A stretch of DNA of 64,000 nt from Adineta ricciae (taxonomy: Eukaryota; Rotifera; Eurotatoria; Adinetida; Adinetidae): positions 62,001-126,000 of the forward strand of contig CAJNOJ010000037.1 of the NCBI GenBank assembly GCA_905250025.1, given 5' to 3'. The notes under the pieces are model-generated. The model searched no databases. It saw only the letters and a program-made list of their open reading frames with translations, and was not told the DNA's origin. Of the stretch, positions 3,001 to 14,896 are shown in pieces. Every line of letters begins with the position of its first letter. The first letter of the stretch is position 1. Both the position numbers and the translations under genes were made by a program.

Positions 3001-6000
3001 CGCCTGCCGGACCAGCTGGAACAGGTAGGAGAGTAGTCTCGTAGTGATTTTACAATAAGTTTGTTGATTTTTTTAAAGGAAAAACCGAGACTGTGAAAGA
3101 TATGGGTCGATGTCTTGGCAAATATGTTGTTGTAAGTTAATCGTTTGACTATATAAATTAAGGATTTCATTTACACTTCTGAGTAGGTTTTTAACTGTTC
3201 GGACCAAATGGATTTCCGTGGTTTAGGTCGTATTTTCAAAGGCTTAGCACAATCCGGTTCGTTTGGATGTTTTGATGAATTCAATCGTATCGATCTACCT
3301 GTCTTATCCGTCGCGGCTCAACAGATTGCGATTGTTCTTGCATGTAAGAAAGAAAAGAAACGTCAGTTCGTCTTCACCGATGGCGATATCGTTGAGATGA
3401 ATAACGAATTCGGTATCTTTCTTACTATGAACCCTGGCTATGCTGGTCGACAAGAATTACCTGAAAATTTGAAGATCAATTTTCGCTCAGTGGCAATGAT
3501 GGTGCCAGATCGTTTACCGATTATTCGAGTAAAAATGGCTGCTTGTGGTTTTCGAGAGAATGTGCCCCTATCAAAGAAATTCTATACACTCTACAAACTA
3601 TGCGAAGAACAACTCAGTAAACAAGTAATCTCCATCGGTTTCTTTTTGTGGAAAGGAATTTTCAAACCTTTTTAGGTTCATTATGATTTTGGTTTACGAA
3701 ATATTTTGTCCGTACTGCGAACATTGGGTGCAGTGAAACGTGCAAATAAAGATGATCAGGAGAAGACAATTGTTATGCGAGTTCTTCGAGATATGAATCT
3801 ATCGAAATTAGTATGGCGTGTTTCGTGTTTATCAATCTCTTAATTTGATTTTTCTAGGTTGACGAAGACGAACCGTTGTTCATTTCGCTGATCAACGATC
3901 TTTTTCCAAATATTAAACTAGAGAAAGAAACGTATGCTGAACTTCAAGCAGCAATTGATAAAGAAGCACTAGCTGCTGGTTTAATTTGTCATCCGCCTTG
4001 GATATTAAAGATCATTCAAGTAAATGATTCAATTTTTTGTTTTGTTCGACATTGAAATTTTTCAGTTATTTGAAACTCAACGTGTTCGTCATGGTATGAT
4101 GACTTTGGGACCATCGGGTGTTGGTAAAACATGCTGTATTCATACGTTAATGAAAGCAATGACGATCTGTGGTGAACCGCATCGTGAAATGCGAATGAAT
4201 CCTAAAGCAATTACAGCACCACAAATGTTCGGAAGACTAGATGCAGCAACAAATGATTGGACAGACGGCATATTTTCTACATTATGGAGACGAACATTGC
4301 GAACAAAAAAAGGCGAATTTGTGTGGCTAGTTTTAGACGGTCCTGTAGATGCAATTTGGATTGAAAATTTGAATTCCGTCTTGGATGATAACAAAACATT
4401 AACATTAGCCAATGGTGATCGAATACCTATGGCACCGAATTGTAAAATTATCTTCGAGGTACACAACATTGATAATGCATCACCAGCTACTGTTAGTCGA
4501 AATGGTATGGTTTATATGAGTAGCTCTGGTTTAGATTGGCGACCGCTGATTCAGGTATTACTAAGAAGAATAGCAAATCGTCTGTGAATCTGCTCGTGTT
4601 TGTTTTGTTCTCTGTTTAATTAGGGTTGGATCAAACGTGACCGTTCAGCAAATGATGGCGAAGTTCTTATGCGTTTATTCGAATCATCATTCCCATATAT
4701 CTATCGGTACTTCGCACTTCATCTCAAATCGAAAATGCCCATCCTCGAATGTATGATTGTTACACAGGTACAGAAAGCTTTTCTCTTGATTCACTTATCT
4801 GAAATACATTCTAATCTAGGCGTGTAAATTGCTGAATGGATTATTACCATCGAAGGAAGCGAAAGATCAGCTCAATGCTCAACACATTGAACGCTTATAT
4901 GTGTTTGCACTGATGTGGTCCATAGGTGCTTTTCTCGAACTAGATGATCGGGCTCGTTTACAAGAATATATTTGCAATGATCCGGAGGCCAATTTTCAAT
5001 TGAACATACCGACCATACCAGCGGATAGTGAAGATACGATATTCGATTATTTTGTGCATGACAAAACAGGTGCATGGAAACATTGGAATACTGTTGTAAC
5101 TGAGTACAATTACCCGAAAGACCACGATCCTGAGTATGCATCAATTCTTGTGCCGAATGTTGATAACGTTCGAACAGATTTTCTCATCCATACCATTGCA
5201 AAACAACATAAAGTATGAACATACAATTTGTCATTTGAACTGAATAGAAAGAAATGTTTGCTTTTATATATAGCCTGTTCTTCTCATCGGCGAACAAGGT
5301 ACGGCCAAGACAGTTATTATCCAATCTTATATGGCTCGTTACAACGCCGAAGAGCATGCTCAAAAGACAGTGAATTTTTCGTCAGCAACAACACCGAATA
5401 TGGTTCAACGAATAATTGAATCGTATGTTGATAAACGTGTTGGAACGACGTACGGTCCACCAGCTGGCAAGAAGATGACTGTTTTCATCGATGATAGTAT
5501 GTGATCGAGAAGAATTCCTTGAGAATCAAATTCTACCATTGTTTTTTTAGTTAATATGCCAACGATTAATGAATGGGGTGATCAAATAACAAATGAAATC
5601 GTTCGTCAGTTGATGGAACAGAGTGGTTTTTATTCACTGGAAAAACCAGGTGAATTCACAACCATCGTGGATATTCAATTTCTTGCAGCAATGATTCATC
5701 CGGGCGGTGGTCGCAATGATATTCCTCAACGTTTAAAACGGCAATTTTGTATATTCAATTGTACACTACCATCGAATACATCCATCGATAAAATCTTCTC
5801 GGTTATCGCTCTGGGACACTATGCAAAAGAACGTGGTTTCAATGAAGAAGTACGTTCATTAGTTGAACGACTTGTGCCTGCAACGAGACGTCTATGGCAA
5901 TTAACAAAAATCAAGATGTTGCCAACACCAGCCAAATTTCACTACGTATTCAATTTACGTGATCTTTCGCGTATATGGCAAGGAATGATTAACACCATTC

Positions 6001-9000
6001 CACAAGTGATTGACAATGAAAAAACGTTAAGTGCACTGTGGAAACATGAATGTACACGTGTTATATGCGATAGGTAAATAGATCAAAAGGGATTCGAAAT
6101 GCAAGTCGAAAGCTTCTTTTTCTTCAATAAGATTTATTGATCAAAGTGATAGAACATGGTTTGAGAACTCATTTTGTCGACTGGCGGATGAACATCTAGG
6201 AATAAAACTAGGTTCTTATATGCGAGGAACGACATATTTCGCTCATTTTCTCAGGTTTTTTTTCGTTGTTGTTAGGTCAAACATGCTCTTCCCCCTCAAT
6301 CAAAAATTTTCCTTTATTCACATGCACTGTGCACTTGTCCTTTTCTTTTGTTTCACAGATTCACTGAGATCGATGATTACCGTTGGTTTTACAAAACGAC
6401 TGAACGTGTTGCTGAAGAAGAATTAGGTGCAAAATATCAGCCGATGGTAAAAAAAGAAGAGTATTTTGTCGACTTCTTAAGGTATCACTTGTTTTCCTCA
6501 TCTGCCCACGTACCTTTGTTTGCATTGTCGATCAAACTAACCGAATTTCTCTTCTAGAGATGCACCTGAGCCGACAGGTGATGAACCCGAAGATGCTGAC
6601 TTTGATGCTCCTAAAATATACGAACCTATTGCATCGTTCGAAACCCTAGAAGAACGTTTAAAAATGTACTTAGTACAATACAACGAAAGTATTCGTGGTT
6701 CCGGTATGGATTTAGTCTTTTTCAAAGATGCGATGGCGCACCTAGTAAAAATTTCGCGTATCATTCGAACACCACGTGGCAACGCACTACTCGTGGGCGT
6801 AGGTGGTAGTGGAAAACAATCGCTAACGAAATTAGCGTCCTTTATTGCTGGCTACAAAACGTTCCAAATCACTTTGACACGCGCCTATAATACTAATAAT
6901 CTATTAGAAGACTTGAAAACGCTTTATCGCGTTGCGGGAAAAGATGGCAAAGGCATTACCTTTATCTTTTCTGATCAAGATATTAAAGATGAATCGTTTC
7001 TTGAATATATCAACAATGTACTTTCATCAGGAGTTGTAAGTGTAAAGCGACGAGTGTTGAAACATCGTTGACGATCTCGAAATTTTAGGTTCCGGGAATG
7101 TTTGCACGAGATGAAATGGATGAAATATGTCAAGAATTGATACCGGTCATGAAAAAGCAATATCCACGACGACCACCCACTAATGAAAATCTCTATGATT
7201 ACTTTTTGTCTCGTGTTCGACAAAATCTACATGTTGTTCTATGTTTTTCACCTGTTGGCGAGAAATTCCGTAAACGAGGTTAGTATTCCCTCTACAATAT
7301 ATGCATCCACCTAATCTGCATTCATATAGGTTTACAATTTCCTGGTCTGGTTGCTAACTGTACGATCGATTGGTTCCTTCGTTGGCCTCGCGATGCATTA
7401 GTTGCTGTCGCCGATCATTTTCTTTCATCGTTTAATATTGTTTGTACAGATGCAATCAAAAAACAAGTAGTTCAGTGTATGGGTTCCGTTCATGACGGTG
7501 TCGCTGAGTATTGTTTGCAATACTTTCAAAAATATCGCCGTGCAACACATGTCACACCGAAATCTTACCTTGCCTTTTTGAATGGTTACAAGGAAATCTA
7601 TTCCCAGAAACTGAATGAAATCGAGTCGATGGCTAAGCGTATGAATGATGGATTAACACGTTTAGTTGACGCAGAAAAAGCAGTCATGGTCATGAAAGAG
7701 GAGTTAACCGTTAAAGAACAGGAACTAGATATTGCGAATAAGAAAGCAGACGAAGTTTTGAAGGAAGTTGCAGTTAAAAAAGGTGCAGCGGAGGTAGTTA
7801 AGCAACAAGTACAAAAAGTGAAAGATACCGCACAAACCTTGGTCGATGAAATTAATCGTGACAAAATCGAAGCCAATGCCGAATTAGAGAAGGCTAAACC
7901 AGCGTTATTAGTATGTCTGATTATTGGTGATTCATATGTTAAAACATCATCTTTATTGCAATTTTAGGCAGCAGAAGAAGCTTTACTGACGATTACACCT
8001 GCTGATATTGCAGTTGTGCGTAAACTTGGCCGTCCACCTCGTCTTATTCGTCAAATGATGGATTGCGTCCTGATCCTCTTTGGGCGTCCTCTCAAGAATC
8101 CGATTAGAATCGATCCCGACTTACAAGGACCTGAACCAAGTTGGGAAAATTCATTAAAAGTATTTTTTCAAATTTATTCCACAGAAACAAGGGAAAAATA
8201 TCATCTTTCTTGTTTAGCTCATGTCCGATACTGGTTTCTTACAGAATCTTCAAACATTCCCACGTGATCGTATCAATGACGAACAAATCGAATTACTTCA
8301 AACCTATTTTCGTGTTCCTGACTACACACCAGAAGGTGCTAAAGTAGCTGCCGGCGCTGTTGCTGGTCTTTTGACATGGACACGTGCTATGGCTGATTTC
8401 TTCTATGTAAACAAACGTGTTCTACCATTGAAAGCGAATTTAGCTATGCAAGAAGCTCGTTTAACCAAAGCCAATGCTCAATTAGAAACAGCACAAGCTG
8501 AACTTGATCGACGAGAAGCGGAAGTTGCTGCTGCGCAAGCTGAATACGACGCAGCTATGGCAATCAAACAACGTTTGCAAGATGATCTCGATCGTACATT
8601 GAAGCGAATGAATGCCGCAAGAGAATTAATAACTGGCCTTGCTGACGAACAAGAAAGATGGACTGAACAGAGCAAGCAGTTCAAAGCCCAAATTGGACGG
8701 TAAGAACATATGCAAACGAATTCATTTTTTTTATTCATTGATTGTCATAGTTTGGTTGGTGATGTACTGCTATGTACCGGATTTCTCTCCTATCAAGGTC
8801 CGTTCAATCAAGATTTTCGCATCTTATTAGCTAAAGATTGGCAAAAACTATTAACCGAACAGAATATTCCATTTACTCGTTCATTGAATGTCACCGAGTA
8901 TTTAACGGACGTGACAATTGTTGGTGAATGGAAGTTACAAGGTCTGCCCAATGATGAACTATCTATTCAGAACGCCATTATCGTTACGCGTGCTAAACGT

Positions 9001-14233: not shown

Positions 14234-14896
14234 ATGACACCTTCATTATTACTACCAATCATGGATGACATAAATCGCTTTTCTCCAGCAACAAATCGTT
14301 ACTCAATACATGATTATGGACAAGGTTATCGCGTCTATTCCTATGAATTTGATTTAATTGGCTACGAACCTGAACAGATAACTGTCCTGCTTGACACAAA
14401 CGGTCGCCTACGCATCCGTGCCTGTCGGTCTCTATGTCAAGAATTTCGACGGGAGTACAATCTTGGCGGACCGAATCTCGAAAGCAAACTTATACGAAAC
14501 ACACTCGATAACTACGGACGGCTCCGTGTTGACGTCGAAGTTCAACCACGTCAAAATAACTTATTAACTACGGATGATAACATTCTTACATTTGATCTAC
14601 ATGGATATCGACCGAAAAACATCACTGTTCGAATCAACGAACACGGCCTATTGAAAGTCACAGCACAACATAGTGATGAGACAGTTGGCCACCGTATTAA
14701 TAAAGAATATTATCGACAATATCAATTACCGAAACATATCGATCGTGATCGTATACGAGCACGTTTAGATGAAAATCAAATTCTAACAATTGAACTACCT
14801 CAATCATTACGAAGACGAAAATCATCTTGGCAACCTTACGACGATGAAAATCCATGTCTTAGATCTAAAAACTCCCAATGTTGTCATGTAATGTAA
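14234..14896 (+). CDS. Small heat-shock protein with two alpha-crystallin domains and CaaX-like C-terminus
   Basis: A single exon encodes 220 residues. Two alpha-crystallin (HSP20) domains are visible. The first is about residues 33-105, with beta-strand motifs YEFDLIGYEPEQITV and GRLRVDVEV. The second is about 113-195, with LTFDLHGYRPKNITVRI, then LPKHIDRDRIRARLDENQ and ILTIELP. Single-domain sHSPs carry only one. These proteins are ATP-independent chaperones that hold unfolding proteins. The second domain keeps the hallmark LDENQ-L-I-E-P pattern, while the first is more diverged. The tail is Cys-rich and ends CCHVM, so the last four residues (CHVM) fit a prenylation CaaX box. The gene has no intron, as is common for stress genes. 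A splice-acceptor-like TTCATAG ends at 14223, 10 nt before the ATG. Confidence 0.88.
   Translation: MTPSLLLPIMDDINRFSPATNRYSIHDYGQGYRVYSYEFDLIGYEPEQITVLLDTNGRLRIRACRSLCQEFRREYNLGGPNLESKLIRNTLDNYGRLRVDVEVQPRQNNLLTTDDNILTFDLHGYRPKNITVRINEHGLLKVTAQHSDETVGHRINKEYYRQYQLPKHIDRDRIRARLDENQILTIELPQSLRRRKSSWQPYDDENPCLRSKNSQCCHVM

Follow-up and report, generated by a model that had tools for sequence, protein, structure and literature searches.

Does the dynein heavy chain gene at this locus carry two exons for a single slot of the motor, and are the two still used as alternatives? The window, by which I mean the whole 64,000-nucleotide stretch of Adineta ricciae DNA that was analysed, is part of contig C37 in an assembly of 130 Mb and 1033 contigs. 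It starts inside the gene, whose predicted exons run on the + strand up to 12617. An earlier note on this DNA had pointed to a tandem pair of dynein exons of equal length and proposed that they are mutually exclusive. I performed a computational analysis of the pair, of its copies in the same genome, and of its counterparts in other dynein chains.

A tandem exon pair in a predicted outer-arm dynein gene

Judged by sequence similarity, the gene encodes a heavy chain of axonemal outer-arm dynein, of the DNAH5/8 type. The predicted protein of the exons U, B and D (U-B-D) matches 8j07_n0, which is named DNAH5, over AAA3-AAA4 with an E value of 1e-186 and 9fqr_I3 with 1.8e-166, and the next chain follows at 7e-90. 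The AAA_7, lid, and AAA_8 models of Pfam match the U-B-D protein in that order. The depositor name of 9fqr_I3, 'Cilia and flagella associated protein 57', clashes with a dynein of 4730 residues; I take this chain to be DNAH8, and both chains are presumably mammalian. The features of the region are as follows.

5551..6073, + strand: exon U, the end of AAA3 and its lid; the donor TAG/GTAAAT is common to the A and B routes
6074..6131, + strand: intron U-A, 58 nt (57 nt in the C113 copy)
6132..6254, + strand: exon A, 123 nt, a divergent copy of exon B and its candidate alternative; donor CAG/GTTTTT
6255..6358, + strand: intron A-B, 104 nt
6359..6481, + strand: exon B, 123 nt, the canonical DNAH5/8 segment from the end of the AAA3 lid to the AAA4 connector
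6482..6557, + strand: intron B-D, 76 nt, with a branch-point-like CTAAC at -18
6558..7036, + strand: exon D, the start of AAA4 with the P-loop; the gene finder puts its end at 7035, and 7036 was used in the frame and copy comparisons

Exons A and B are adjacent internal exons of like length flanked by AG and GT; each is entered after ...GAT AG and left at ...AG, and the phase is equal at both ends. The path from U to D is open and stop-free with A, with B, and with A and B together, the last of which agrees with the earlier statement that the doubly included form stays in frame. Double skipping is in frame as well, because the exon length is 123 nt. In having homologous neighbours, either of which alone keeps the frame, the locus looks like the mutually exclusive type. 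A and B align without a gap and share 16 of 42 residues (38%) and 60 of 126 nucleotides, where the 42 include the two residues whose codons are split by the junctions; the earlier count had been 15 of 41, and the motifs named with it (DxxWF, RxAxE, LGxK, and YFxxFLR) are indeed common to both exons.

As a chance control, I collected 79 open AG-123 nt-GT segments on both strands of the window and of seven loci (9.5-10 kb) and scored each of them against B over 40 residues. The B exons score 216 in the window and 215 in C113, the C11 segment 151, and the A exons 64 in the window and 61 in C113, while the best non-dynein segment reaches -8. With the top 8 rows dropped, the other 71 segments have a mean of -41, a standard deviation of 11, and a maximum of -21. 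The claim of two gap-free homologous exons of 123 nt and the same phase is confirmed, and A lies far above the non-dynein segments of this control. Together with the decay simulations described below, the segment scan disfavours a recent random duplicate or a chance open frame as the origin of A.

Where does the segment lie in the motor? It corresponds to residues 174-215 of U-B-D, in which the Pfam models DYN_lid and AAA_lid_1 cover residues 99-179 and 113-191, and AAA_8 begins at residue 265. The placement between AAA3 and AAA4 that had been proposed needs some amendment: the segment does extend toward AAA4/AAA_8 and into the connector, but it starts within the AAA3 lid models and is not connector alone. 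The two lid models give 37.3 and 55.2 bits for the A form and 35.1 and 54.9 bits for the B form, and of the segment they take in the first 6 to 18 residues alone, being mute on the remainder. A single segment was found in 8j07_n0 (DNAH5), 9fqr_I3, 7kzm_C, the C11 copy, and both C25 copies, as expected from the earlier note, according to which family members carry one.

Copies of the segment in the genome

Is the pair found elsewhere in this genome? Each of the two peptides, A and B, was searched against the assembly at E values up to 10, and both led to the same places, at least seven in number: C37 and C113, each with A and B, C11 with one segment, and C25 with two. C113 holds a near-identical collinear copy (95.6% over 10.7 kb and 93.5% over 6.5 kb), which is probably the other haplotype. 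A near-identical collinear copy (C113) plus a more distant one (C11) is the pattern that a degenerate tetraploid yields, which would fit a bdelloid rotifer. Exons A and B, the reading frame, and all AG/GT sites are retained in C113, and its exon A has neither a stop nor an indel.

In C11, the intron from U to B is only 50 nt long and lacks A, and the locus has one segment only. A downstream gene, small-heat-shock-like by eye, lies at 14234-14893 of the window and also behind the C11 copy (C11:63259-63969); since the downstream neighbour is the same, C11 is a syntenic copy. Against C11, 29 of the 42 residues of exon B are identical, as are 154 of 173 for exon U and 138 of 159 for exon D, so that even B, the canonical segment, has diverged faster than the exons that flank it. 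In the C25 paralog, the segment sits within a larger exon. This DNAH5/8-like paralog has a tandem internal duplication of 3.04 kb (C25:476959-480001 and 480063-483105), whose units are 97.1% identical, lie 61 nt apart, and include the AAA3-AAA4 region with the studied segment once per unit. The gene finder joins both units in one gene model, though it was free to place introns. The duplication could be genuine, within the motor, or an artefact of haplotype assembly.

Degeneration of A in close relatives had been named as evidence against the proposed exclusive pair. Within this genome, this is half the case: C11 lacks A, and A is fast-changing between C37 and C113 but open in both. A tree of the segments, with 42 columns, is too short to settle the age of the duplication; a single clade of A and B is worse by 4.07 log-likelihood units and is not rejected (p-AU 0.13), and the grouping of B with C11 has a support of 78/49. 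With 213 residues of the B form as query, genome_contigs and viral_contigs gave 23 and 8 pattern matches, respectively, none of them a confirmed relative, and exon A had no match among plasmids; rotifers are not expected in these collections, and the negative outcome is uninformative.

Signs of past constraint on exon A

Of the 13 family-invariant positions, exon A keeps 10, and of the 29 others it keeps 6 (Fisher p = 0.0013). The invariants were taken from seven animal DNAH5/8 segments (two B copies, C11, two from C25, 8j07_n0, and 9fqr_I3), which include near-identical pairs and have an effective number of about 5. Could a neutrally decaying copy of B look like this? In 4000 simulated decays of B to 16 identities, with no indels admitted, a single one kept at least 10 invariants, 11% were stop-free, and none was both. 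Decays to 20 identities kept at least 10 invariants in 0.9% of cases (0.1% also stop-free), and decays to 25 identities in 9.5% (2.2% also stop-free). Since the milder decays pass more often, the result on the invariants would be less strong had B itself contributed much of the divergence.

The comparison with the outgroup chains points the same way. A shares 16 of 42 residues with 8j07_n0 and 16 with 9fqr_I3, and B shares 19 and 17, respectively. In 5000 neutral decays, likewise without indels, the mean identity was 8.8 to 8j07_n0 and 7.7 to 9fqr_I3, and at least 16 to both occurred in none of them. As a lone 42-residue query, A matches 9fqr_I3 (16.2 bits, E 0.12) and not 8j07_n0, and B matches 8j07_n0 (16.2 bits, E 0.1) and 9fqr_I3 (14.9 bits, E 0.28), all of these matches being weak alone. 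The A form with its flanks matches 9fqr_I3 at an E value of 2.6e-17 and 8j07_n0 at 1.5e-13, values which the shared flanks help. Taken together, these comparisons support the view that exon A was shaped by long protein-level constraint and not by random decay.

Present constraint on exon A

Is exon A still constrained? Between C37 and C113, exon U has 1 nonsynonymous (Nd) and 18 synonymous (Sd) differences, exon B 1 and 4, and exon D 2 and 25. Exon A has an Nd of 6.3 and an Sd of 0.7, with five residues changed; three of its seven differences fall in a single codon and may have arisen together. Purifying selection visible in B is therefore not visible in A, in a comparison of two copies only. 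Over the whole predicted gene, pS is 0.144 and pN is 0.0034, based on 3448 of 3459 predicted codons, with pre-254 and gapped codons excluded and some exons missed by the predictor. None of the 3407 other 41-codon windows of the gene, which overlap, has an Nd of at least 6.3 (maximum 4), and the N:S ratio of A departs from that of the gene (Fisher p = 3e-6).

Single changes in A, if free of selection, would alter a residue in 67% of cases, be silent in 28%, and create a stop in 5%. At least six altering changes out of seven would then arise with p = 0.35, versus p = 1.4e-6 under the gene-average selection. Short introns differ at 137 of 1365 sites (0.100) between C37 and C113, and the total divergence of A is 7 of 123 versus 12.3 differences expected at that rate (p = 0.077); the slightly low total hints at residual constraint on A at most. 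The five changed residues all lie outside the 13 family invariants, for which the chance is about 0.16 by hand calculation. The long-term similarity to the outgroups, combined with the rate of today, points to a recent drop in the constraint on A or to diversification of A, two cases that two sequences (C37 and C113) cannot separate.

Splice sites, gene prediction, and devices of exclusivity

A home-made gene finder was trained on the window with 73 introns (46-339 nt, median 56), those beside exons shorter than 15 nt having been dropped. Among these 73, counted from the weakest, the acceptor and donor of A rank 5 and 4 by splice score in the window, and those of B rank 24 and 14, with a slight bias toward B in that the training set includes the junctions of B and not those of A. 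In C113, the acceptor and donor of A rank 5 and 3, and the acceptor of B is also weak (rank 5). The splice sites of exon A are weak. No branch-point-like motif of the form yTnAy is present in the U-A intron of the window. An alternative donor for A at 6275 was rejected, as it scores below all 73.

At intron penalties from -14 to -10, the gene finder leaves A out of the gene in both copies, that of the window and that of C113. Laxer penalties gave artefacts only, namely an empty exon at the A donor (-8) and a truncated exon from the A acceptor (-6 and -4). The coding score of A per base is -0.001 in the true frame, which is the best of the three (the others give -0.136 and -0.272), and none of 180 overlapping chunks taken from this gene scores as low (0.009 to 0.161), whereas B scores 0.036. 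Three quarters of the introns of the gene stay below -0.03 in their best frame, and the highest reaches 0.003.

Which device could keep A and B apart? Removal of double inclusion or double skipping through the frame is impossible, since both are in frame. The A-B intron gives no sign of a steric block; its 104 nt compare with a minimum of 46 nt, and the shortest introns have 46-51 nt. Its best branch-point-like site is TTCAC at -39. A distant branch point would fit the window, where the intron is AG-free from -83 to the B acceptor, but C113 has an AG at -34. Competing RNA structure was not evident in the 484-nt stretch, whose fold has a z score of +1.13 and was equalled or surpassed in stability by 88 of 100 shuffles; 13 inverted repeats were found, a raw count that has no shuffle baseline. 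By eye only, the splice sites look U2-type. Among the devices considered, no signature of an enforced choice was seen. It is possible that the choice between A and B is controlled by a protein factor, which is unreadable from sequence.

Discussion

These results may be best explained by an old pair of the mutually exclusive type, in which B is the default and A is a minor, recently relaxed alternative; I give this reading a probability of roughly 0.5. An old tandem duplication of one exon would have generated two interchangeable segments reaching from the AAA3 lid to the AAA4 connector. The spliceosome would take B by default because the splice sites of B are better. A, when used, would replace B, and the motor would then differ at its AAA3-AAA4 junction; the residues of the B slot that A has retained would speak for replacement rather than insertion. 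Splicing of A would be minor, and its selective constraint would have been lost recently. Of the mutually exclusive alternative proposed at the outset, the homologous one-slot pair in both near-identical copies and the long constraint on A stand. That A is an alternative maintained today is not supported: amino-acid constraint is not visible between the copies, the splice sites are weak, and the C11 copy is without A.

It is also conceivable, though unlikely, that A is a dead or dying relic, a former alternative exon that evolves neutrally because virtually no transcript includes it any longer. The share of residue-changing differences between C37 and C113 is what would be expected without selection, the splice sites are weak, the gene finder skips A, and A was lost from, or never in, C11. 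The retention of A without a stop, an indel, or a loss of AG/GT in either copy speaks against a relic, but weakly, as about 70% of neutral histories with seven changes would be stop-free; the divergence of A, slightly below the short-intron rate, also does so. If A were instead a cassette exon added to B, the motor would have a 41-residue repeat at its AAA3-AAA4 junction. Such a transcript would be in frame, the A-B intron is well above the shortest introns of the window, and the B acceptor is adequate in the window (24/73), though weak in C113 (5/73). This arrangement seems improbable: replacement explains better why A retains residues of B's slot, the compared relatives have one segment, and the ring would probably be disturbed if two AAA modules had a repeat between them. 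It is quite improbable that A is a used alternative exon under diversifying, not relaxed, amino-acid selection. The excess of Nd over Sd with the frame and splice sites kept would fit such selection, as would the position of all five changes outside the invariants, though by chance this is not rare; the count of altering changes, however, is not above the neutral expectation, and the two sequences would look alike in both cases.

What would the old, mutually exclusive-type pair mean for the motor? In cytoplasmic dynein, LIS1 sits by AAA3-AAA4, and this dynein is regulated near the AAA3 lid and the AAA4 connector. The position of the segment alone is what would suggest any effect of A on motor regulation; AAA3 and AAA4 are involved in regulation (PMC12338079). 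Should A be used, two outer-arm motors would come from a single heavy-chain gene, and the locus would offer a natural and minimal swap of the AAA3-AAA4 junction for probing the tuning of ciliary beating. If A is dead, the locus shows how an alternative exon that had long been conserved loses its constraint, while a syntenic copy lacks the exon altogether. The bolder view, that this is the first swappable exon pair of an axonemal dynein, making two outer-arm motors in which A changes fast as an adaptation to a special ciliary use, is doubtful.

Among the matches listed in the literature, titles and abstract openings mention no mutually exclusive exons in an axonemal heavy chain, which weakly supports the earlier statement that no axonemal case has been described. 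Within the dyneins at large, there is a precedent: the excerpted text of PMC3228551 reports a mutually exclusive exon pair in SmDHC1, a cytoplasmic dynein heavy chain of Schistosoma mansoni. In OGDH, exons 4a and 4b likewise compete for one slot, and their exclusivity is enforced by distant branch points, as stated in the excerpt of PMC7969005; in the present pair, the signature of a distant branch point is not conserved, as the AG of the A-B intron in C113 indicates. The muscle myosin heavy chain of arthropods resembles the present case, in the account excerpted from PMC3228551, in the presumed logic of an exon swap that tunes a motor domain. It is a well-known case in a different motor, and the Daphnia gene has nine clusters versus one candidate pair here. 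The closest likeness in form is to SmDHC1 itself, whose exons, as the same excerpt describes them, are tandem, homologous, of equal length, split codons at both ends, and lie in the middle of the gene. In contrast to the present pair, they belong to a cytoplasmic and not an axonemal chain and have 'strong homology' (PMC3228551), whereas A and B are 38% identical.
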